Of a stretch of DNA of 64,000 bases, positions 7,480-42,205 are shown in pieces; the first letter of the stretch is position 1; every line of letters starts with the position of its first letter. The DNA comes from Bacteroidota bacterium (lineage in GTDB: Bacteria > Bacteroidota > Rhodothermia > Rhodothermales > JANQRZ01): positions 62,001-126,000 of the forward strand of contig JBCDKT010000004.1 of the NCBI GenBank assembly GCA_038746285.1, read 5' to 3'. The position numbers were made by a program, and so were the translations under genes. The notes under the pieces were generated by a model that saw only the letters and a program-made list of their open reading frames with translations, was not told the DNA's origin and made no database searches.

Positions 7480-9213
7480 TCAGCGCACGACGCTCAGGCG
7501 CTGCACTACCGCACCTGCTGCTGTTTCGGCCCGGACGATGTAGAGACCGGACGGCAACGTACGCGACGCAAAGGCGAAGCTGTGCTCACCGACCGCGAGC
7601 GGTCCGTCGTGGAGCACGGCCACGCGGCGGCCGAGGGCGTCGTGGACCGACACGGTCGCCTCGCCCGCCTCAGGCACCGAGACGAGGACGCGGGCCTCCG
7701 ACGCCGTCGGGTTCGGGTAGAGCGCGAGCCCGGCCGCCCCCGCCGTCGGCGACGGGGCTACCGAGACCGGGTTGTCGCCGTAGCGCGCGACGAAGGCGTC
7801 CTCGAACCCGAGCGCCGACACGTCCGGCGTGCCGTCCTCGGTGAAGTCGGCGTCGGCGACGAAGCGGCCGGTGACGAAGGCGTTGCCCGCGGCGTCGACG
7901 GCGACGCTGTAGGCCCGGTCGTCCTCGGGGCCGCCGGCCTGGCTGACCTTCACGAGCGTGCCTGCGGCGTCGTACTCGGCCACGAAGATGTCGTTGACCC
8001 CGAGGCTCGTCACGTCGGCCGTGCCGTCCTCGTCGAAGTCGGCTCCGGCCTGGAAGCGGCCGACGAGGAAGATGTTGCCCGCGACATTGGCGTCGATGCC
8101 CTCGCCCCGGTCGCTGGCGGCGCTACCGGCGCGGCGGAGCCAAACGAGCTCGCCCGCGGCGTCGTAGTAGGCGAGGAAGATGTCGCGGTCGCCGGCGCTC
8201 GACACGTCGGGCGCGCCGTCGCCGTCGAAGTCGGCGTTGATCTGGAAGTAGCCGGTGACGTAGGCCCCGCCGGCACCGTCTGAGGCCACATCGTAGCCGT
8301 AGTCGGTGCTGATGCCGCCCGCGCTGCGGACCCACACGAGGTTGCCCTCGCCGTCGTAGCGGGCGGCGAAGATGTCCTGCTCGCCGGCACTCACCACGTC
8401 AGCCGCACCGTCGCCGTCGAAGTCGACGCTCTCGCGGATCTGGCCGGCGACGACCACGCCGCCGAGGCCGTCCACGGCGATGTCGTTGCTCACGTCGTCG
8501 CGGCTGCTGCCGGCGCTGCGGACCCAGAGGAGCTCGCCGTCACCGTCGTACCGGGCCACGAAGACGTCGAAGCTGCCGGCCCCGGAGACGTCTGCGACGC
8601 CGTCGCCGTCGAAGTCGGCGTCGTCGATGAAGGTGCCGGTGACGAAGGCCCCGCCCTCGCCGTCGGGGACGACGCCGTAGGCGCGGTCGAAGATCTCTCC
8701 GCCGGCGTCGCGGACCCAGAGGAGCTCGCCCTCGCTGTCGTAGCGGGCCAGGAAGATGTCGTTCGCGCCGGCGCTGAATACGTCGGGCGTGCCGTCGCCG
8801 TCGAAGTCGGCCCCCTCGCGGAACTGGCCGGCGAGGTAGGCCCCGCCCTCCCCGTCCGAGGAGACGGCGTAGGCAATGTCGAAGCCGGCGCCGCCGGCGC
8901 GGCGGCCCCAGAGGAAGTTGCCGTCGCCGTCGTAGCGGGCGATGAGGATGTCGCCGCTGCCGGCGCTCGTCAGCTCGCCCGTGCCGTCGCCGTCGAAGTC
9001 CATGCTGGCGAAGAAGTAGCCCGCGATGAAGGACCCGCCGGCCCCGTCGGTGGCGATGCCGTAGGCTATCTCCTGGCTGGTGCCGCCTGCCCGCTCGACC
9101 CACTCTGCCTGCGCGAGCGCCTCGGCCGAGACGAGCAGCAGGGCGAGGGTGAGCAGCCACACCGGTGCCGGGCGGCGCGAGGAGCGGGCGGAAGGTGTGT
9201 ATCGGTCGATCAT
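7480..9213 (-). CDS. Secreted SBBP-type beta-propeller protein with T9SS sorting domain
   Basis: A 577-residue protein. It has a signal peptide (PVWLLTLALLLVSAEALAQA) preceded by an Arg-rich n-region. Seven consecutive 64-residue repeats follow (from Trp38 to about 480). Each has the form W(V/L)RxAGG...D..AY.....DG.GG.(Y/F)(V/L)(T/A)G.F....DFDGDG..DV.SAG..DIF.ARYD..G.L. The DxDxDG cores look able to bind calcium. Seven repeats fit a seven-bladed beta-propeller. The C-terminus (LYPNPTASEARVLVSV ... DALGRRV ... LPSGLYIVRAE) is a T9SS sorting domain. It probably acts outside the cell in adhesion or binding; no catalytic motif is seen. Confidence 0.88.
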   Translation of the reverse strand: MIDRYTPSARSSRRPAPVWLLTLALLLVSAEALAQAEWVERAGGTSQEIAYGIATDGAGGSFIAGYFFASMDFDGDGTGELTSAGSGDILIARYDGDGNFLWGRRAGGAGFDIAYAVSSDGEGGAYLAGQFREGADFDGDGTPDVFSAGANDIFLARYDSEGELLWVRDAGGEIFDRAYGVVPDGEGGAFVTGTFIDDADFDGDGVADVSGAGSFDVFVARYDGDGELLWVRSAGSSRDDVSNDIAVDGLGGVVVAGQIRESVDFDGDGAADVVSAGEQDIFAARYDGEGNLVWVRSAGGISTDYGYDVASDGAGGAYVTGYFQINADFDGDGAPDVSSAGDRDIFLAYYDAAGELVWLRRAGSAASDRGEGIDANVAGNIFLVGRFQAGADFDEDGTADVTSLGVNDIFVAEYDAAGTLVKVSQAGGPEDDRAYSVAVDAAGNAFVTGRFVADADFTEDGTPDVSALGFEDAFVARYGDNPVSVAPSPTAGAAGLALYPNPTASEARVLVSVPEAGEATVSVHDALGRRVAVLHDGPLAVGEHSFAFASRTLPSGLYIVRAETAAGAVVQRLSVVR

Positions 9214-9388
9214 GGACTCAGGAGGATTTGGTGAAGGAGGTCAAGGGATCGCAACATAAGCGATTACCGCACCTGCTGCCAATACCGAACCGAGCGTTGC
9301 AGCCCGCTGTCTACGAACGGCAGGGCCGGAGAGACCGCCTGGGCAGGGGGTCGATCCTCGAAGCCGAGGCCGAGGTAGGCGGCACGCC

Positions 9389-10897
9389 TCACGGGTTCAG
9401 CCGCCCGAGGAGGCGCGGGAACGGAATCGTCTCGCGGACATGCGGGAGCCCGCACACCCACGCGACGGTCCGCTCCAGGCCGAGCCCGAAGCCCGCGTGC
9501 GGGACCGACCCGTAGCGCCGCAGGTCGAGGTACCACGCGAAGACCTCCTGGGGCAGCCCGTGCGCGTCGATCTGGCTTTTCAGGAAGTCGAGGTCCGTCG
9601 CCCGCTCACCGCCGCCGACGATCTCGCCGTAGCCCTCGGGCGCGAGCACGTCCATCCCGAGCGCGAGCCGGTCGTCCTCGGGGTCGCGCTTCATGTAGAA
9701 CGCCTTGACGGCCGCTGGGAAGCGGTGGACGATGATGGGCCGGTCGAAGTGCTTGGTGAGGACGGTCTCGTCGGAGCCGCCGAAGTCGCCGCCCCACTCG
9801 AAGCTCGCCGCCGACGCCTTCCACTTCGGGAGGTTGCGGAGCGCCTCCTCGATCTCGCCCAGCCGCCCGCCGATGGCGATCTCGCGGGCGTCGATCCGGC
9901 GCTTCTCGCCCTTCTTAGCCTGCCCGTAGCGTGCGCGGTTGCCGTCGCGCTCGGAGGTCAGCGCCGCTTGCTCTGCCTCGAGGTCGGCGATCTCGGCATC
10001 GAGGAGGGCCTGCGTCTTGTCGCTTCTGAGGAGGTCGACGGCCTCGGAGTAGTGGACGCGCGGGAAGCCGCCCTCGGCAGCGGTTTCGAGTGCCGACGTG
10101 TCGCGCTCTAGCAGGGCGAGTTCGTCGGCGCAGTGAGCCAGCACGTCCGAGGCGATCCGGCGGAGGAGGCCTTCGGCGAGGGCCATGTCCATCTCCAGAT
10201 CGAAGAACGCCATCTCGGGCTCGATCATCCAGAACTCGGTCAGGTGCCGCCGGGTCTTCGACTTCTCGGCGCGGAAGGTCGGGCCGAAGGTGTAGATCTT
10301 GCCGTGGGCGAGCGCCATCGCCTCGCCGTAGAGCTGCCCGCTCTGGGTGAGGTAGGCGGGCTCGTCGAAGTAGTCGAGCTCGAAGAGCGTGCTCGTCCCT
10401 TCGACCGCGTTGCCAGTCAGCACTGGCGGGTCCATCTGGATGAAGCCGTCCTCCTGGAAGAAGGCGTGGATCGACTGGATGATGCGGTTGCGGACGCGCA
10501 TGATCGCCCACTGCCGCTGGCTGCGCAGCCACAGGTGGCGGTGGTTCATCAGGAACTCGACCCCGTGCGCCTTCGGGCTGATTGGGTACTCCTCGGCGAG
10601 ATGCAGCAGGTCGACCGCCGTCGCCTGGACCTCGTAGCCCCCGACCTGGCGCTCGTCGGCGACGACGCGGCCGGTGACGCGGAGAGCGCTCTCCTGGGTC
10701 GCCGCGGCGGCAGCCTCGAAGCCGGCAGCGTCCACCTGCTCCTCGTTCACGACGCACTGCGCCAGCCCGGTGCCGTCGCGGAGGATGAGGAAGTAGAGGC
10801 TCTTGGAGCCGCGCTTGTTGTAGAGCCAGCCCTGGAGCGTGACGGTCTCGCCCTCGTGCTGGGCGAGGTCGCGGACGGCGGTGGAGGAGTCAATCAT
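9389..10897 (-). CDS. asnS: Asparaginyl-tRNA synthetase
   Basis: A 502-residue class II synthetase. The N-terminal OB-fold anticodon-binding domain contains [19 protein letters not shown]. Class II motif 1 and 2 regions follow ([42 protein letters not shown]), and motif 3 [15 protein letters not shown] is near the C-terminus. The VEGTSTLF and [13 protein letters not shown] signatures point to AsnRS, not AspRS. It charges tRNA-Asn in the cytoplasm. It is longer than the usual 430-470 residues because a highly charged, coiled-coil-like segment (about residues 300-365, rich in E, A, R and K) sits between the EAVDLL and SFEWGGDF parts of the catalytic domain. Confidence 0.95.
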
Positions 10898-22535: not shown

Positions 22536-22629
22536 GATTGGGGATTTCGGAGTGACGATCTTGGATTTGCCGCTTCGTTCCCCACCCTCTTCCCAATCCG
22601 AACTCCAAAATCCCCAATCCAAAATGCAA
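22536..22629. repeat. Inverted heptamer array containing the icd start codon (element H)
   Basis: Left arm 22536-22570: GATTGGG, GATTTCG, GAGTGAC, GATCTTG, GATTTGC. Right arm 22595-22629: AATCCGA, ACTCCAA, AATCCCC, AATCCAA, AATGCAA. The first 18 bases of the left arm pair with 22602-22619 with one mismatch. The last unit contains the icd ATG (22624), so in mRNA the ribosome landing site would be near the hairpin base. Confidence 0.9.
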
Positions 22630-23871
22630 ACCCTCACCCCCCCAACCGACGGTACCGCCATCACGATGCAAGACGGTCGCCTCCACGTCCCCGACCGGCC
22701 CATCGTCCCGTTCATCGAAGGCGACGGCATCGGCCCCGACATCTGGGCGGCGGCCTCGCGCGTGCTCGACGCCGCTGTCGAGAAAGCCTACGGTGGCCAG
22801 AAGGAGATCGTCTGGTTCGAGGTCTATGCCGGCGAGAAGGCCCACGACGCCTTCGGCGAGTGGCTGCCCGAGGACACCCTCACGGCCATCGAGCAGTACC
22901 TCGTCGCCATCAAAGGCCCGCTCACGACGCCCGTAGGCGGCGGCTTCCGGAGCCTCAACGTCGCCCTCCGACAGAAGCTCGACCTCTACGCCTGCGTCCG
23001 CCCGGTGCAGTACTTCGACGGCGTACCCTCGCCGGTCAAGAGCCCCGAGGACGTGGACATGGTGATCTTCCGCGAGAACACCGAGGACATCTACGCCGGG
23101 ATCGAGTTCGAGGCCGGGAGCGAGGGCATGCGGAAGCTGCGCGACTTTTTGCAGGACGAGATGGGCGTCACCTCGATCCGCTTCCCCGAGACGAGCGGCC
23201 TCGGCGTCAAGCCGGTCTCCGAGGAGGGCACCAAGCGCCTCGTCCGCGCCGCGATCCGCTACGCCATCGACAACCATCAGGACACCGTCACGCTCGTCCA
23301 CAAGGGCAACATCATGAAGTTCACCGAGGGGGCCTTCCGCACCTGGGGCTACGAGGTGGCAAAAGAGGAGTTCGGCGCCACCGACCTCGACGGCGGCCCG
23401 TGGCAGACGATCACCACCGGCGACGGCCGCGAGGTCACGGTCAACGACGTGATCGCCGACGCGATGCTCCAGCAGATCCTCACGCGCCCGAAGAACTACA
23501 GCGTGATCGCGACCATGAACCTCAACGGCGACTACATCTCCGACGCCCTCGCCGCCCAGGTCGGGGGGATCGGGATCGCGCCCGGGGCCAACATCAACTA
23601 CGACACCGGGCAGGCCATCTTCGAGGCCACGCACGGGACCGCGCCGAAGTACGCCGGGCAGGACAAGGTCAACCCGTCGAGCGTGATCCTCTCGGGCGAG
23701 ATGATGTTCCGCTACCTCGGCTGGACCGAGGCCGCCGACCTGCTCGTCGCCGCGATGGGCAAGACGATCTCGCAAAAGCGCGTCACCTACGACTTCGAGC
23801 GCCTGATGGACGGCGCGACCCTCCTCCAGACCAGCACCTTCGGCGATGCTCTGATCGAGAACATGGGGTAA
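22624..23871 (+). CDS. icd: Isocitrate dehydrogenase (NADP+)
   Basis: A 415-residue TCA-cycle enzyme of the E. coli Icd type (416 residues there). It oxidatively decarboxylates isocitrate to 2-oxoglutarate. Visible are [12 protein letters not shown], the substrate loop [17 protein letters not shown] with Ser110 (equivalent to the phosphorylatable Ser113 of E. coli), [29 protein letters not shown], and [15 protein letters not shown]. The Lys-Tyr pair in the last motif indicates NADP specificity. The ATG at 22624 lies inside the last unit of a heptamer array, and no Shine-Dalgarno sequence is seen. A long in-frame extension into the glycosyltransferase region is fortuitous. Confidence 0.97.
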
Positions 23872-23894
23872 GTTGCCGGAGCTAGTGTAAGCGC

Positions 23895-24791
23895 ATGCTG
23901 AACATCGAACTTGAGAAGCGAATTCAGAAGGAGATAGATCAGAGCGGATTTCCGCTAGAACTTGATGTCGTCGCTGATCTACGAGAGGCCAACTACATAG
24001 TCTCCCCAAACCTCTCTTTCAGCAATGGAGAGCGGCTTGCCCGTGAGATCGACGCCGTCGCATTCTCGAACGAAGAAACCCCGGATGGCTGGCCATTCGG
24101 AGTCATAGGGAACGTGCTCGCAGTAGAGTGCAAGCGGCAAAGAAAAAAACCATGGGTGTTCTTCGAAGAGGGTCTTGATCCTTTGGCTGTGCTCGGGCTC
24201 GGTACTGAGATCGATATACTAACAGAGCTCGAATACACGCTACCCTACAACGTGTTGGCAGCATGTATGAACTCCCCACTGCGTGGTCATCATTTCAACG
24301 GCTTTCTCCCTAGAGCACGCACCTACTTCGAGGCATTCTCCAAACCGAATCAAGAGAACTCTATTTACAAGGCCGTTCAAAGCGTTTGGCACGCGCTTAC
24401 TTTTATCCGCTCATGGTTTGGAGAGCAGGGCTTTGATCGGACCCCTAAAGCAAGCGCTGTCAAGCGAAGAACGTTTTTGCTCCAAGGTGTTATCGTTCTG
24501 GACGGGCAACTCTTGTTGGCCAGTAAGGAAGGTGACGAATTCACCTTAGCCGAGTCAGATCACATAATTCTGAGAACGATTGATCGGTTGACACGAGAGG
24601 GAAAATCTGCATTCGGTATCGGTGAGGAAATCGTGATCGACGTAGTATCGTACAGGGGTCTTGCGAAATATCTCGATCAGAGCGTCAAGAATGTTGAACT
24701 GCTGAGCCAGCACCTATCAGCTCAGCTCAAGGCAGGTTGGATATTGGATTCTTCCAACTCATCGTCAGAGGGGCAAGGTGCTGGGGAGTAA
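23895..24791 (+). CDS. Hypothetical protein with PD-(D/E)XK nuclease-like N-terminus; low GC, probably acquired
   Basis: A 298-residue protein encoded by DNA of about 50% G+C, clearly lower than all neighbours, with AT-rich codons otherwise rare here. The N-terminal 90 residues follow the restriction-endonuclease-like pattern. A first helix (LEKRIQKEIDQSG) leads to a strand with Asp53 (LAREIDAVAF), then Glu78 and Lys80 (VLAVECKRQRKKPWVFF), the D...ExK active site. The rest (about 100-298) has no recognised domain but ends in a helical part (YLDQSVKNVELLSQHL) that could be a winged-helix-like region. A nuclease or defence role is inferred only from the motif. It is inserted between icd and an inverted-repeat element. 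Confidence 0.7.
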   Translation: MLNIELEKRIQKEIDQSGFPLELDVVADLREANYIVSPNLSFSNGERLAREIDAVAFSNEETPDGWPFGVIGNVLAVECKRQRKKPWVFFEEGLDPLAVLGLGTEIDILTELEYTLPYNVLAACMNSPLRGHHFNGFLPRARTYFEAFSKPNQENSIYKAVQSVWHALTFIRSWFGEQGFDRTPKASAVKRRTFLLQGVIVLDGQLLLASKEGDEFTLAESDHIILRTIDRLTREGKSAFGIGEEIVIDVVSYRGLAKYLDQSVKNVELLSQHLSAQLKAGWILDSSNSSSEGQGAGE

Positions 24792-24794
24792 AAT

Positions 24795-24880
24795 TGTCAT
24801 TGCGAGGAGCATAGCGACGAAGCAATCTCCTGACCTCGACTTCGTCCTTTGGAGATTGCTTCGCTTCGCTCGCAATGACA
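24795..24880. repeat. TGTCATTGCGAG inverted-repeat element, copy 1
   Basis: Left arm 24795-24830 (starts TGTCATTGCGAGGAGC, ends GCAATCTCC) pairs with right arm 24851-24880 (GGAGATTGCTTCGC ... GCAATGACA). It lies between the low-GC gene and the convergent SGNH hydrolase. The second copy is at 42118-42205. I recall similar CATTGCGAG...AAGCAATCTC dispersed repeats from many unrelated bacterial genomes. Confidence 0.9.
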
Positions 24881-24899
24881 GCCTTGGGTTCTTCTACCT

Positions 24900-25782: not shown

Positions 25783-27627
25783 ATGCGCTACGTCCTCGCT
25801 TTCCTCTGCCTCGCGCTCGCCGGCCCCGCCTCGGCGCAGCCGCTGACGAACGCCTTCCCGAACCTCACCTTTGACGCGCCGGTCGACATCCAGTCGGCGG
25901 ACGACGGCTCGAACCGACTCTTCGTCGTCGAGCAGCAGGGCACGATCCGCGTCTTCACGAACGACGCTGCGGTCGGGTCTGCCTCGGTCTTCCTCAACAT
26001 CACGGGGCGCGTACTCTCCGGCGGCGAGCAGGGCCTCCTCGGCCTCGTCTTCGACCCGGACTACGCGCAGAACGGGTACTTCTACGTCAACTACACCGCG
26101 AGCGGCCCGCGCCGCACGGTGATCTCGCGCTTCGAGGTCACCAGCAACCCGAACGTCGCCGACGCAGGCAGCGAGGAGGTGCTCATCACGGTGGACCAGC
26201 CGTTCAGCAACCACAACGCCGGGCAGGTCCAGTTCGGGCCGGACGGCTACCTCTACGTCGCGCTCGGCGACGGCGGCTCGGGCGGCGACCCGCTCGACAG
26301 CGGGCAGAGCCTCGACACGCTCCTCGGGAGTCTGCTCCGCCTCGACGTGGACGGAGGCGGCAACCCGCTCGACTGCGGGGCCGGCACCGGCTCGGCGACG
26401 ATCCCTGCCGACAACCCGTTCATCGACGGGCCGGGCGGCGACTGCGACGAGGCCTGGGCCTACGGCCTTCGCAACCCGTTCCGCTACAGCTTCGGGCCGG
26501 AGGGCCGGCTCTGGCTAGCCGACGTCGGGCAGAATCGCCGCGAGGAGGTCAACATCATGGAGGCGGGCGGGAACTACGGCTGGAACGACCTCGAAGGCAC
26601 GCTCTGCTACCCGTCGGGCCAGGCCAACTGCCCGCTGGGCGGGACGATTCCGCCGATCTTTGAGCACCCGCACAACTTCTTCGGCAACCAGGGCGCGTTC
26701 TCGATCATCGGCGGCTACGTCTACACCGGCCCTTCGTGCGAGGCGCTGCGCGGCAAGTACGTCTACGGCGACTTCATCACGCGCAACCTCTGGACGCTCA
26801 CCTTCGACGGCGTGACCGCCGACAACGACGAGCTCTCGGCCTCGGCCGGCCCGACGACGTTCGGGCTCGACGAGCAGGGCGACCTCTTCCTGACCGACGG
26901 AAACCTCATCGAGCGTTTCGACTGCGCGACCGACGTGGCTGTCGAGGCGTCGCTCGTCGGCGGCCCGGTCACGATCCCCTCGGGGGGCGGCTCGTTCTCC
27001 TTCGACGTGACGCTGGACAACACCACCGGCGCGGCGCAGACAGTCGACGTGTGGGTCTCGGCGGACCTCTCAAACGGGACGGAGCGCAACCGGGTCTTCG
27101 GTCCCCAGACGGTTACGCTCCCGGGCGGCGCGAGCGGTACCGGCCGAGTGACGCTAAGCGTGCCGGGGCAAGCCCCAGCGGGCGTCAGCACCGGCGTCGT
27201 CACCGTCGGCGACTTCCCGAACGGCCCGACTGACGCGGCGCGCTTCACGATCACCAAGCTCGGCGGAGCGCTCGGCGACCGCGTGGCGGCCGACGCCGCG
27301 TGGCAGGTCGAGGGTGCCAACTTTGGGGTCGACGAGGCCCGTGTCGCTACGGCCAGTGCCACCGCCGACGGCTTCGCGCTGGCGGCCTTCCCGACACCCT
27401 TCGCCGAGCAGACGACCGTGCAGTACACCCTCGACGCCTCCGGCCCCGTCCGCCTCGCCGTCTACGACGTGCTCGGGCGCGAGGTCGCGGTGCTGGCCGA
27501 CGGGCAGGCCGAGGCGGGGACGCACGAGGCGGTGTTCGAGGCGGCGGGGCTGCCGAGCGGGGTGTACCTCTTGCAGCTCGACGCCGGCCGCCGCGCAGCC
27601 GTGCAGACCGTGACCCTCACGCGCTGA
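25783..27627 (+). CDS. Secreted PQQ-dependent sugar dehydrogenase-like protein, paralogue 1, T9SS cargo
   Basis: A 614-residue protein. Signal peptide MRYVLAFLCLALAGPASAQ; glucose/sorbosone dehydrogenase beta-propeller from about 20 to 385 (VDIQSADDGSNRLFVVEQ, GLLGLVFDPDYAQNGYFYV, HNAGQVQFGPDGYLYVALGDG, YGLRNPFRYSFGPEGRLW, EVNIMEAGGNYGWND). An Ig-like module (TIPSGGGSFSFDVTLDNTTG ... KLGG) follows, then a T9SS sorting domain (AAFPTPFAEQTTVQY ... DVLGREV ... LPSGVYLLQL). Members oxidise aldose sugars with PQQ in the periplasm or outside; whether this one binds PQQ is not shown. It is the first of three tandem copies. Confidence 0.9.
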   Translation: MRYVLAFLCLALAGPASAQPLTNAFPNLTFDAPVDIQSADDGSNRLFVVEQQGTIRVFTNDAAVGSASVFLNITGRVLSGGEQGLLGLVFDPDYAQNGYFYVNYTASGPRRTVISRFEVTSNPNVADAGSEEVLITVDQPFSNHNAGQVQFGPDGYLYVALGDGGSGGDPLDSGQSLDTLLGSLLRLDVDGGGNPLDCGAGTGSATIPADNPFIDGPGGDCDEAWAYGLRNPFRYSFGPEGRLWLADVGQNRREEVNIMEAGGNYGWNDLEGTLCYPSGQANCPLGGTIPPIFEHPHNFFGNQGAFSIIGGYVYTGPSCEALRGKYVYGDFITRNLWTLTFDGVTADNDELSASAGPTTFGLDEQGDLFLTDGNLIERFDCATDVAVEASLVGGPVTIPSGGGSFSFDVTLDNTTGAAQTVDVWVSADLSNGTERNRVFGPQTVTLPGGASGTGRVTLSVPGQAPAGVSTGVVTVGDFPNGPTDAARFTITKLGGALGDRVAADAAWQVEGANFGVDEARVATASATADGFALAAFPTPFAEQTTVQYTLDASGPVRLAVYDVLGREVAVLADGQAEAGTHEAVFEAAGLPSGVYLLQLDAGRRAAVQTVTLTR

Positions 27628-27651
27628 TCGTCTAGACCTCCCGCGTCTTCT

Positions 27652-27683
27652 GCGCCCCGGTCGTCTCGCAGCGACCGGGGCGC
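27652..27683 (+). terminator. Hairpin after sugar dehydrogenase copy 1
   Basis: GCGCCCCGGTCG (27652-27663) pairs perfectly with CGACCGGGGCGC (27672-27683), loop TCTCGCAG. No long T-tract. The same hairpin, diverged, follows copies 2 and 3, so it was duplicated with the genes. Confidence 0.7.
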
Positions 27684-27706
27684 AGCGCGTATGCGCCGGA
27701 GCGCTC

Positions 27707-27735
27707 TTGACAGGAGGGGGAACGGTGCGTATCTC
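27707..27735 (+). promoter_or_regulatory. Sigma-70-like promoter of sugar dehydrogenase copy 2
   Basis: TTGACA (27707-27712), 17 bases, TATCTC (27730-27735), 42 bases before the ATG. An equivalent arrangement precedes copy 3. Confidence 0.55.
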
Positions 27736-27776
27736 GGCCTCCCACTGCTGCCTTCCCTCCAGCCCGCTTCCGACCC

Positions 27777-29639
27777 ATGCGCTATCTCTACCTCGCCGCC
27801 TGCCTCCTCCTCGTCGCCCCCGCGTCGGCCCAGGAGTTCGAGAACGCGTTCCCGAGCCTCACCTTCGACGGCCCCATCGTGGACATCCAGGCCCCGGACG
27901 ACGGTTCGAACCGGCTCTTCGTCGCCGAGCAGGTGGGCACCGTCCGCGTCTTCCAGAACGACGAGGCCAGCACCCAGACCGCGCTCTTCCTCGACATCAC
28001 CGACCGCGTCTCGACGGCGCGGAGCAACGAGAAGGGCGTCTCGGGCCTCGCGTTCGACCCGGCCTACGCGCAGAACGGGTACTTCTACATCAGCTACACG
28101 GCCGAGGACCCGCTCCGCCTCGTCGTCGAGCGCTACACCGTGTCGGCTACGAACCCGAACCGGGCCGATCCGTCGAGTGCCGTGGCTATGGTCAGGGTGC
28201 CGCTGCCCGACGACGAGCACCACGCCGGGCAGCTTCAGTTCGGGCCGGACGGCTACCTCTACCTCTCGCTCGGCGACGGCACCTTCAACTTCTTCAACGG
28301 GGACCCCTTCGAGAACGGGCAGAACCCGGCGACGCTTCTCGGCTCGCTCCTCCGGCTCGACGTGCGCGGCGCCGGACAGCCGCTCGACTGCGCGGCCGGC
28401 ACCGGCCTCGCCACCCTCCCGGCGGGCAACCCCCTCGCCGACGGGCCGGGCGGCGTCTGCGACGAGATCTACGCCTTCGGCTTCCGCAACCCGTGGCGCT
28501 TCAGCTTCGCCCCCGACGGCCGCCTCTGGCTCGGCGACGTCGGCCAGAGCGACCGCGAGGAGATTAACGTTGTCGAGCCGGGCGACAATTACGGCTGGAA
28601 CACCTACGAGGGCACGCGCTGCTTCGACGCGCCCTGCGACCCGGCGGGCCTCACGTTTCCGATCTACGAGCACCCGCACAACTTCTTCTCTGGCCAGGGG
28701 GCGTTCTCCGTCATCGGCGGCTACGTCTACCGCGGCAACACCTGCGCCCCGCTCCTCGGGAAGTACGTCTACGGCGACTTTGTGACGACGAACACCTGGA
28801 CGCTCGGCTTCGACGGGGTCGACGCTACCAACGAGGTGCTCGTGCGCTCGTCCGGGTTCGCCGTGACGACGTTCGGCGAGAGCGAGCAGGGCGAGCTCTA
28901 CCTCGGCGACAGCGACGGCGACACGCTGCAACGGCTCGACTGCGCGCAGCCGGTGACGGTGGCGGTCGCACCCGTCGGCCCCGCGACGGTGCCTGCCTCG
29001 GGCGGCGCGCTCACCCTCGACGTGACCCTCACCAACACGACCGCCTCGGCGCAGACCACGCAGGCCTGGGCCACGGCCGACCTCTCGGACGGAAGCGAGC
29101 GCGTCGTGGCGGCACCGGTCGCGGTGCGGCTTCCGGCGGGGGCGAGCGTGACGCGGCGCGTGACGCTCGGCGTGCCGGGCCTCGCCCCGGCGGGCGTCAG
29201 CACGCTCGTGGTGAAAACCGGCAGCTTCCCCGATGCGGCGTCGAGCGCAGACCTCGTCGCCGTCACAAAGCTAGGCGGGTCGATTGGCGACCACGCGGCG
29301 AGCGGCGACGCGTGGCAGGCCGAGGGCTTCCGCTTCGACGGAGCGGAGGCGGGCGACCCCGCGGCGCAGGCTGTGGCCGAGCCCGCCGCCCTCTCGGCGT
29401 TTCCGACGCCGTTCGCCGGGCGCACGACGGTGCGCTACGTGCTCGGCGAGGCCGGCCCGGTGCGGGTGTCGGTCTTCGACGTGCTCGGGCGCGAGGTCGC
29501 GGTGCTGGCCGACGGGCAGGCCGAGGCGGGGACGCACGAGGCGGTGTTCGAGGCGGCGGGGCTGCCGAGCGGGGTGTACCTCGTGCAGCTCGACGCCGGC
29601 CGCCGCGTAGCCGTGCAGACCGTGACGCTCGCGCGCTGA
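27777..29639 (+). CDS. Secreted PQQ-dependent sugar dehydrogenase-like protein, paralogue 2, T9SS cargo
   Basis: A 620-residue protein with the same layout as the preceding gene. A signal peptide (MRYLYLAACLLLVAPASAQ) is followed by the propeller (VDIQAPDDGSNRLFVAEQ, GVSGLAFDPAYAQNGYFYI, HHAGQLQFGPDGYLYLSLGDG, FGFRNPWRFSFAPDGRLW, EINVVEPGDNYGWNT). Next come an Ig-like module and a T9SS domain. The module (28983-29233) is almost identical at DNA level to that of copy 3, and the last 170 bases plus part of the 3' untranslated region are nearly identical to copy 1. This copy is therefore a mosaic. It likely has its own promoter and hairpin terminator. Confidence 0.9.
   Translation: MRYLYLAACLLLVAPASAQEFENAFPSLTFDGPIVDIQAPDDGSNRLFVAEQVGTVRVFQNDEASTQTALFLDITDRVSTARSNEKGVSGLAFDPAYAQNGYFYISYTAEDPLRLVVERYTVSATNPNRADPSSAVAMVRVPLPDDEHHAGQLQFGPDGYLYLSLGDGTFNFFNGDPFENGQNPATLLGSLLRLDVRGAGQPLDCAAGTGLATLPAGNPLADGPGGVCDEIYAFGFRNPWRFSFAPDGRLWLGDVGQSDREEINVVEPGDNYGWNTYEGTRCFDAPCDPAGLTFPIYEHPHNFFSGQGAFSVIGGYVYRGNTCAPLLGKYVYGDFVTTNTWTLGFDGVDATNEVLVRSSGFAVTTFGESEQGELYLGDSDGDTLQRLDCAQPVTVAVAPVGPATVPASGGALTLDVTLTNTTASAQTTQAWATADLSDGSERVVAAPVAVRLPAGASVTRRVTLGVPGLAPAGVSTLVVKTGSFPDAASSADLVAVTKLGGSIGDHAASGDAWQAEGFRFDGAEAGDPAAQAVAEPAALSAFPTPFAGRTTVRYVLGEAGPVRVSVFDVLGREVAVLADGQAEAGTHEAVFEAAGLPSGVYLVQLDAGRRVAVQTVTLAR
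28983..29233 (+). repeat. 251-bp block shared with 30980-31230
   Basis: The Ig-like module region of copy 2 and that of copy 3 (30980-31230) differ at one position by eye (GCGGTG versus GCAGTG) over 251 bases. The flanking catalytic domains are much more diverged. This points to gene conversion or domain-sized duplication. Confidence 0.9.
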
Positions 29640-29663
29640 TCGTCCAGACCTCCCATGGCTTCT

Positions 29664-29696
29664 GCGCCCCGGCTGCCTCTCTGGCGGCCGGGGCGC
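29664..29696 (+). terminator. Hairpin after sugar dehydrogenase copy 2
   Basis: GCGCCCCGGC (29664-29673) pairs with GCCGGGGCGC (29687-29696). It is homologous in position and sequence to the hairpin after copy 1. Confidence 0.65.
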
Positions 29697-29719
29697 TGTG
29701 CATAGGTGCCGGAGCCTCC

Positions 29720-29749
29720 TTGACATGGACCGATGCCGTGCGCTATCTA
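29720..29749 (+). promoter_or_regulatory. Sigma-70-like promoter of sugar dehydrogenase copy 3
   Basis: TTGACA (29720-29725), 18 bases, TATCTA (29744-29749), 34 bases before the ATG. It parallels the copy 2 promoter. Confidence 0.55.
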
Positions 29750-29782
29750 CCTGCATTCCCCAACCATCCTCCCCGCACTGCC

Positions 29783-31630
29783 ATGCGCTGTCTCACCCTG
29801 GCCGCCTGCCTCCTCCTCGCTGTTCCCGCTTCGGCCCAGGAGTTCCAGGCTGCATTCCCGGACCTCGCCTTCGACGTTCCCATCACGGACATCCAGGCCC
29901 CGGACGACGGCTCGAACCGGCTCTTCGTCGCCGAGCAGTCGGGACGGATCAAGGTCTTCACGAACGACCCGGCTACGCCGTCGGCGAGCGTCTTCCTCGA
30001 CCTCCGCGACCGGATCAACCCCCGCGTCGGGATCATCGGCCTCGCCTTCGATCCGGCCTTCGCGCAGAACGGGCTCGTCTACGTCCACTACAACCGCGAC
30101 ATCAGCGGTCCGGCCGCCTCTCAGAACGTCATCGCCCGCTTCGAGACCACGGCGACGGGCGTAGCCGACCCCGACAGCGAGGAGATCCTGATCACCGTGG
30201 ACCAACAGCGCGAGCAGCACTTCGGCGGCCAGCTTCAGTTCGGGCCGGACGGCGCACTCTACGCCTCGTTCGGCGATGCGGGTGGGCAGGGCGATCCCTT
30301 CGGGAACGGGCAGGACCTGACGACGCTCCCGGCTACCGTCCTCCGCCTCGACGTGCGCGGCACGGGCCTCCCGCTCGACTGCGCCGCCGGCACCGGCTCG
30401 GCGACGATCCCCGCCGACAACCCGCTGATCGACGGGCCGGGCGGTGGCTGCGACGAGACGTTCGCCTACGGCTTCCGCAACCCCTTCCGCTTCAGCTTCG
30501 CGCCCGACGGCCGGCTCTGGCTCGGCGATGTCGGACAGGACGAGCGGGAGGAGGTCAACATCGTCGAGCCCGGCGGCAACTACGGCTGGAACACGCTCGA
30601 AGGCACGCTTTGCTTCAACTCACCCAACGGCTGCGACGCGGCCGGTACGGTTCTGCCCATCCGCGAGTATCCCCACAACCTCTTCTCCCAGGATGGCGGC
30701 TTCTCCGTGACGGGAGGCTACGTCTACCGCGGCAATACCTGCTCGCCCCTCCTCGGCCGCTACGTCTACGGCGACTTTGTGACGACGAACCTCTGGTCGC
30801 TCACCTTCGACGGGCAGACCGCCGACAACCAGGTCCTCGATAGCTTCTCGGGGCTCGCCGTGACCACGTTCGGCGAGGACGAGCAGGGCGAGTTGTACCT
30901 CGGCGACCTCGTCACCGGTACCCTGCTCCGCCTGACGTGTACGCAGCCAGTGACGGTCAGCGCCGTACCCGTCGGCCCTGCGACGGTGCCTGCCTCGGGC
31001 GGCGCGCTCACCCTCGACGTGACCCTCACCAACACGACCGCCTCGGCGCAGACCACGCAGGCCTGGGCCACGGCCGACCTCTCGGACGGAAGCGAGCGCG
31101 TCGTGGCGGCACCGGTCGCAGTGCGGCTTCCGGCGGGGGCGAGCGTGACGCGGCGCGTGACGCTCGGCGTGCCGGGCCTCGCCCCGGCGGGCGTCAGCAC
31201 GCTCGTGGTGAAAACCGGCAGCTTCCCCGACGCAGCGTCGAGCGCGGACCTGGTCACCGTCACGAAGCTGAGCGGGCCGAGCAGTGGCCGTACGGCCTCC
31301 TGGCAGGCCGAAGGCTTCGGCTTCGAGGTCGCTGGGGCGGCGCGCCTCACTGCGGCAGGAGCCGCCGCCGACGGTGCCGTGCTAGCCGCCTTCCCGACGC
31401 CCTTCGCCGAGCAGACGACGGTTCGGTACGCCCTCGACGCCCCCGGCCCCGTGCGCCTCGCCGTCTACGACGTGCTCGGGCGCGAGGTCGCCGTACTGGC
31501 CGAGGGGCGGGCCGGGGCCGGCAGGCACGAGGCGGTGTTCGAGGCGGCGCGGCTGCCGAGCGGGGTGTACCTCGTCCGGCTCGACGCGGCCGGCACGGTA
31601 CGCACGGCGTCGGTGACGCTGCTTCGCTGA
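29783..31630 (+). CDS. Secreted PQQ-dependent sugar dehydrogenase-like protein, paralogue 3, T9SS cargo
   Basis: A 615-residue protein. It has a signal peptide (MRCLTLAACLLLAVPASAQ) and a propeller with the same landmarks (TDIQAPDDGSNRLFVAEQ, HFGGQLQFGPDGALYASFGDA, YGFRNPFRFSFAPDGRLW, EVNIVEPGGNYGWNT). The Ig-like module is shared with copy 2, and a T9SS domain ends it (AAFPTPFAEQTTVRYALDA ... DVLGREV ... LPSGVYLVRLD). The His before GQ in the first propeller landmark is conserved in all three (HNAGQ, HHAGQ, HFGGQ), which fits retention of the active-site base. The start at MRCLTL is chosen for its signal peptide; the longer frame runs back into copy 2. Confidence 0.9.
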   Translation: MRCLTLAACLLLAVPASAQEFQAAFPDLAFDVPITDIQAPDDGSNRLFVAEQSGRIKVFTNDPATPSASVFLDLRDRINPRVGIIGLAFDPAFAQNGLVYVHYNRDISGPAASQNVIARFETTATGVADPDSEEILITVDQQREQHFGGQLQFGPDGALYASFGDAGGQGDPFGNGQDLTTLPATVLRLDVRGTGLPLDCAAGTGSATIPADNPLIDGPGGGCDETFAYGFRNPFRFSFAPDGRLWLGDVGQDEREEVNIVEPGGNYGWNTLEGTLCFNSPNGCDAAGTVLPIREYPHNLFSQDGGFSVTGGYVYRGNTCSPLLGRYVYGDFVTTNLWSLTFDGQTADNQVLDSFSGLAVTTFGEDEQGELYLGDLVTGTLLRLTCTQPVTVSAVPVGPATVPASGGALTLDVTLTNTTASAQTTQAWATADLSDGSERVVAAPVAVRLPAGASVTRRVTLGVPGLAPAGVSTLVVKTGSFPDAASSADLVTVTKLSGPSSGRTASWQAEGFGFEVAGAARLTAAGAAADGAVLAAFPTPFAEQTTVRYALDAPGPVRLAVYDVLGREVAVLAEGRAGAGRHEAVFEAARLPSGVYLVRLDAAGTVRTASVTLLR

Positions 31631-42117: not shown

Positions 42118-42205
42118 TGTCATTGCGAGGAGCCGAAGGCGACGCGGCAATCTCCTGACGCAGCCTCATCTTTCGGGAGATTGCTTCGCTGCGCTCGCAA
42201 TGACA
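42118..42205. repeat. TGTCATTGCGAG inverted-repeat element, copy 2
   Basis: Left arm 42118-42155 (TGTCATTGCGAGGAGC ... GCAATCTCC), right arm 42176-42205 (GGAGATTGCTTCGC ... GCAATGACA). The outer bases match copy 1 at 24795; the inner bases and the loop differ. It lies immediately downstream of the hicA remnant. Confidence 0.9.

Follow-up and report, generated by a model that had tools for sequence, protein, structure and literature searches.

What does a gene do that lies alone, and foreign in composition, between a metabolic gene and a dispersed repeat? The question is raised by a reading frame in the 64,000-nucleotide stretch of Rhodothermales DNA analysed here (the window), for which an original prediction had proposed an acquired nuclease with a PD-(D/E)XK active site and a novel C-terminal part, either a single-protein defence system or an orphan restriction enzyme. 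With a probability of about one half, the product would be a stand-alone, probably Mg2+-dependent PD-(D/E)XK DNA nuclease, acquired as cargo and attacking incoming phage or plasmid DNA.

A foreign gene in a variable slot

The coordinates of the open reading frame are exact (ATG at 23895, stop at 24791; Table 1). Its GC content is 0.502, against a mean of 0.691 for the window, and 61,310 stretches of the same length without overlap with it have a minimum of 0.629 and a mean of 0.694. The GC content at third codon positions is 0.544, compared to 0.947 in the upstream gene icd and 0.889 in the downstream esterase gene. Furthermore, the codon-adaptation score of the gene is 0.204, against 0.63–0.78 for six neighbouring genes that are themselves the training set of the score. 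The gene is acquired and compositionally foreign, and the low-GC island with changed codon choice that had been proposed is confirmed by these values. Although the gene has kept its foreign appearance, its frame of 298 codons is intact and no core residue has been lost, so that a decaying remnant with no present function is scarcely credible, even if the genome searches returned no close orthologue on which selection could be tested.

Table 1. Coordinates of the features discussed, as positions in the window.
Feature	Position	Strand	Basis
icd-like gene, left border of the variable slot	22624..23871	+	comparison with relatives; name presumed
Variable slot from the icd stop codon to the dispersed repeat, occupied by different small genes in relatives	23872..24793	.	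genome comparison
Predicted stand-alone PD-(D/E)XK nuclease gene, 298 aa	23895..24791	+	ORF, composition, conservation, model
E22 codon; invariant glutamate in the first core helix	23958..23960	+	13/13 rows
Codons of R50-E51-I52-D53, in strand 2, including the predicted catalytic aspartate	24042..24053	+	E51 and D53 13/13 rows, R50 12/13; strand 49-58 modelled
Codons of E78-C79-K80, E-x-K of strand 3	24126..24134	+	K80 13/13 rows, E78 10/13; strand 71-90 modelled
Codons of K85-P86-W87, family motif ending strand 3	24147..24155	+	P86 9/13 rows, W87 10/13
Codons of residues 93-142, low-confidence insertion	24171..24320	+	pLDDT < 50
Codons of residues 156-212, completing the predicted nuclease core with its second helix and the next strand	24360..24530	+	model, VIA alignment
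Dispersed imperfect inverted repeat, REP-like, about 90 bp, right border of the slot	24791..24886	.	repeat matches, folding

The upstream gene, which we take to encode isocitrate dehydrogenase (icd), and the repeat delimit a slot with different contents in related genomes. In a genome of the same genus (G001), the DNA is about 91% identical up to near the end of icd, and similarity returns with the dispersed repeat and continues in the esterase gene, while the slot holds a different low-GC ORF of 118 aa (L037 4321-4677) with no Pfam match. In a genome of the same family (G002; L038 9144-10630), a segment of about 1.4 kb behind icd carries small ORFs, one of which encodes a PIN_3 domain protein; beyond it lies a 72-base copy of the genome's own icd 3' end that is 96% identical, which would be a typical trace of site-specific integration. 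Seven further genomes of the order had neither a copied icd end nor such an esterase gene within up to 2.6 kb, and the window itself contains no second icd end. No tyrosine integrase (PF00589) was found on the 133-kb contig. The repeat folds 5.9 sd better than its shuffles and has a second copy in the window (42118-42205), with 13 matches in its own genome, 33 in G001, 41 in G002 and none in three further genomes (G004, G009 and G012). That the nuclease gene is cargo in a site of turnover is well supported. Further downstream, at 25783-31630, the window also holds three similar genes in tandem with a shared C-terminal tail, presumably encoding secreted glucose/sorbosone-dehydrogenase-like proteins.

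Conservation of the putative active site

A bare D...E-x-K motif was rejected as proof of a nuclease, being frequent by chance: of 98 ORFs with at least 250 aa, 28 contain the loose D...(D/E)xK pattern, as do 77% of 2000 shuffles of the nuclease protein, and the figures for a stricter version are 6 of the 98 ORFs and 12% of the shuffles. The nuclease claim therefore rests on the relatives and on the fold. With regard to the relatives, an alignment was made of 13 of the 15 loci known for the family, the window protein counted and two loci left out (G600, which was found later, and L045, an annotated fragment). The aligned members are 16–30% identical to the window protein, and the PD-(D/E)XK signature with its helix glutamate is present among them, E22, E51, D53 and K80 being kept in all 13 rows, R50 in 12 and E78 in 10. 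Such conservation across distant members argues strongly that the motif stands above chance. The family appears to be marked by the succession G[FY]..E / REID / (E)CK / KPW and by a length of about 260–320 aa in most members. The residues D53 and E78-x-K80 are present as originally described, and the helix said to precede them is found in the model, where helix 19-31 comes before strand 34-43.

By analogy with the superfamily, E22, D53, E78 and K80 would form a metal-binding site and cut the phosphodiester backbone. The glutamate of the E-x-K is replaced in three members, by alanine in L014 and by serine in L024 and L044, all of which retain E22, E51, D53 and K80, and their active sites are possibly rearranged or dead. 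This loss of E78 in 3 of 13 rows, together with the toxin–antitoxin-like PIN-domain gene beside a small ORF in the G002 slot, would fit a cargo with another role, for instance that of an addiction-pair toxin or of a catalytically inactive regulator. However, the active-site residues of the window protein are intact and no small partner ORF lies beside its gene within the slot, which makes such a role decidedly improbable.

Predicted fold and the C-terminal part

AlphaFold2 models were built with six sequences for the window protein (pLDDT 61.9, pTM 0.67) and for a relative from a viral contig, L042 (pLDDT 75.7, pTM 0.78); the two models are not independent because the same six sequences were used for both. 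The order of elements is the same in both, namely a helix, three strands, a poorly modelled stretch, a helix, strands and a last helix. Foldseek searches with both models returned nothing at E <= 0.001, and neither did a comparison with viral models at the same threshold. In VIA-align, nearly all the rows obtained with either model are restriction-like nucleases, with a best Z of 7.8 for the window protein and 7.9 for L042; they include McrC (7.8), Hje (7.5) and VC1899 (7.3 and 7.9), as well as Cdn1, Can2 and FokI, with SduA, NucC and HamA lower. McrC, VC1899, Cdn1, Can2, FokI, SduA and NucC belong to one superfamily. The alpha-beta-beta-beta-alpha-beta core of the PD-(D/E)XK superfamily is thus seen in two predicted models with Z < 8, a value that would be unconvincing alone; it is the combination of two agreeing models, rows of a uniform kind and invariant residues that makes the predicted fold convincing. 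The restriction-like core that structure prediction was expected to reveal, if the original prediction was right, is present in the models.

The original prediction had also described about 200 C-terminal residues that match nothing. This holds for sequence searches and is misleading for the modelled structure: helix 156-177, strand 193-212 and the part that follows fall within the nuclease core, and because the aligned range extends as far as about residue 265, most of the C-terminal part is core. A new domain in the C-terminal half was rejected, as aligned nuclease cores extend across it, residues 93-142 excepted. What had been read as a novel separate module appears to be for the most part the second half of the nuclease core, common to the relatives. 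In the first 90 residues the core would comprise one helix and three strands; a variable insertion would come next, and then the second helix and further strands.

A sporadic family

Searches of Pfam, PADLOC, NCBIfam, PHROGs, plasmid, phage and PDB sequences with the nuclease protein gave no useful match, nor was anything useful obtained when PDB sequences were searched with profiles. As far as sequence comparison can tell, the family matches no model in Pfam, NCBIfam or PADLOC and would be new, while its kind, stand-alone restriction-like nucleases, is known. Weak Pfam matches in single relatives to NERD, UPF0102 and Mrr_cat (0.0083 to 0.048) are consistent with the fold and prove nothing, and a partial PADLOC match of L014 to PDC-M60A (E 0.0024, 13.8 bits) was rejected as chance. 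No paper on this nuclease family was noticed in a literature search, which does not exclude that one exists.

In genome searches, whose counts all include the genome at the centre of the search, the single protein found the family in 2 of 99 relatives and, its own genome included, in 3 of 395 genomes of the phylum; no copy was found in the same-genus or the same-family genome described above. A profile of the first four sequences matched 8 of the 395 genomes, one of which was dropped as another family. Searches around two other members matched 4 of 150 genomes, three of them dropped (G236), and 2 of 398 (G593). Among named genomes, those with a member were Planktosalinus lacus, a Bacteroidetes MAG and a Betaproteobacteria MAG (G593), of which the first two had already been matched; the search around the last gave one additional member genome. 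Other members lie on two viral contigs and on plasmids of Priestia, Leptospira and Enterobacter. The relatives are thus spread sporadically over four phyla (Bacteroidota, Pseudomonadota, Bacillota and Spirochaetota). The 15 loci counted are the window, nine genomic ones (G021, G424, G387, G236, G276, G227, G177, G593 with locus L041, and G600), two viral contigs (L042, L043) and three plasmids (L024, L044, L045); the Leptospira hits H4 and H5 are near copies of H3 (L045) and were left uncounted. Only 2 of 11 inner branches of the tree are well supported and the end branches are long, as would be expected of an old, mobile and fast-changing family. The weak matches G233 (L016), G567 (L050), G591 (L051) and G560 (L052) were dropped, L052 on score alone. 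We take L016, together with L063 4876-5733 and L064 5657-6514, to combine an ATP-cone-like N-terminus with an Mrr-like nuclease and to represent another family with a weak profile match.

Genomic surroundings of the relatives

Five of the 15 loci lie on plasmids or viral contigs, and seven, two of these five among them, have at least one PADLOC-matching neighbour among the neighbours tested, so that one or the other applies to 10 of the 15. Nine of 31 neighbours match at E <= 0.001 (eight, at six loci, if an unspecific helix-turn-helix gene is left aside), a rate that is biased upwards because the neighbours were partly picked after reading them, and the count was made without a matched control set. 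At the five remaining loci, one of which is that of the window, the family gene stands by itself among ordinary genes, and none of the 10 neighbours tested there match PADLOC; two of these ten are neighbours of the window copy. Homologues would be expected in defence islands; the PADLOC-matching neighbours at seven loci point that way, with the bias mentioned, and the five lone loci do not. Consistently housekeeping contexts, which would have spoken against the original prediction, are not what the family presents.

The neighbours themselves are diverse. They include a retron II-A reverse transcriptase and its NDT protein in G236, an AbiU/AIPR gene in G424, an HKD+Snf2 gene with an AIPR part nearby in G276, and a TIR-radical SAM protein in G177. 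In the Betaproteobacteria MAG (L041 5923-8762), a DUF4268/PDC-S11 gene, a CAP12-type TIR effector and the family gene are consecutive on one strand. The Leptospira plasmid (L045) carries an HNH restriction-like gene next to the relative, and the Enterobacter plasmid (L044) the helix-turn-helix gene whose PADLOC match is unspecific. AIPR was rejected as a fixed partner, being present as single copies in 3 of 8 genomes and close to the family gene in 2 of these 3. On a prophage-like contig (L043 7977-9520), the stop codon of the relative overlaps the start of an ORF of 249 aa (8771-9520) with no Pfam or PADLOC match, and the two may form a two-gene cassette. This family gene presumably lies between tail-completion and baseplate genes. 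Its position is away from the gpA-gpQ hotspot described in PMC9122126. From these surroundings, a single-protein defence system appears plausible.

Comparison with known nucleases

Shedu SduA (DUF4263) is a single-gene defence protein that likewise has a PD-(D/E)XK domain. SduA (8ps5) is the best Foldseek hit of the window protein (E 0.016, prob 0.63) and aligns to it in VIA-align with Z 5.3–5.6 over 150–154 residues (rmsd 4.8–5.0). Notwithstanding, SduA and DUF4263 profiles gave no PADLOC or Pfam match for the window protein or the relatives scanned, and residues 11-265 of the model align to 219-402 of SduA; nothing in the window protein corresponds to the approximately 220 residues that precede the nuclease domain of SduA. 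This N-terminal part is a regulatory or DNA-end clamp according to PMC12904381, and would be missing from the window protein, in which the predicted core starts near residue 11 instead of about 219.

The highest Z of the window protein, 7.8, is that of McrC (6hz4; rmsd 3.4, 133 residues). McrC acts together with the GTPase McrB in type IV restriction, while no McrB-like partner lies beside the window gene. The nuclease domains of VC1899, Can2, Cdn1 and Card1, CRISPR ancillary nucleases and their relatives, align with L042 with Z up to 7.9; these proteins carry a ligand-sensing CARF domain, and the window protein has none.

The archaeal resolvases Hjc and Hje, as well as XisH, share the same core (Z 7.5 for 1ob8), and their motif consists of a catalytic E in the first helix, a D and an E-x-K. 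Rows of these families at Z 5.5–7.5, the presence of relatives on plasmids and viral contigs, and the copied icd end in G002, which indicates integration activity at the slot, would all fit a mobile-element nuclease acting in recombination or repair, similar to Holliday-junction resolvases or to XisH, in place of a defence protein. This reading is nevertheless unlikely, given that no tyrosine integrase is found on the contig, that several relatives adjoin defence genes and that the members have about twice the length of Hjc (298 residues here, against about 115–130 in Hjc/Hje and XisH), the window protein adding a long insertion and extra strands.

Proposed function and its meaning

The composition and the predicted fold agree with the acquired, lone restriction-like nuclease of the original prediction, and neither PF01555 nor PF00589 was found on the 133-kb contig. 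An orphan type II restriction enzyme, that is, an endonuclease of defined sequence specificity that has lost its methyltransferase or has it encoded elsewhere in the genome, would share the fold class, with HindIII, EcoRI, PspGI and FokI among the VIA-align rows. Methyltransferase matches do occur on other contigs (C11, C41), the helix-turn-helix gene of the Enterobacter plasmid is a weak match to restriction-modification control proteins, and the HNH gene of the Leptospira plasmid is restriction-like. Against this, contig C4 has no N6/N4 methyltransferase (PF01555; the m5C type lay outside the search), no tested neighbour of the relatives matched a methyltransferase model, and the annotated putative RNA methyltransferases of L024 are at least 4 kb away from the family gene. 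An enzyme of this type is, on balance, improbable.

We infer instead that the gene was acquired into the turnover slot between icd and the dispersed repeat, and that the cargo nuclease would attack incoming phage or plasmid DNA. With no N6/N4 methyltransferase found on the contig, the host would most likely be spared because the nuclease recognises a DNA state specific to phages (modified bases, DNA ends or branched intermediates), and not through classical type II restriction-modification. Such recognition is favoured, with low certainty as to which state. Modified bases, DNA ends and interference with host repair are named as restraints of lone nucleases in PMC12904381. A more specific proposal, which we put forward tentatively, is a new compact family of single-gene anti-phage nucleases, smaller than Shedu and free of partners, that senses a phage-specific DNA state and in which some members without the E-x-K glutamate may cut through a rearranged site.

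The slot between icd and the repeat illustrates how small cargo is exchanged downstream of a metabolic gene where no integrase remains. If the nuclease is protective, it would represent a very small family of single-gene defence nucleases, thinly spread and undetected by the profile libraries tried, and it would offer a simple system for how a lone nuclease distinguishes phage DNA from its own.
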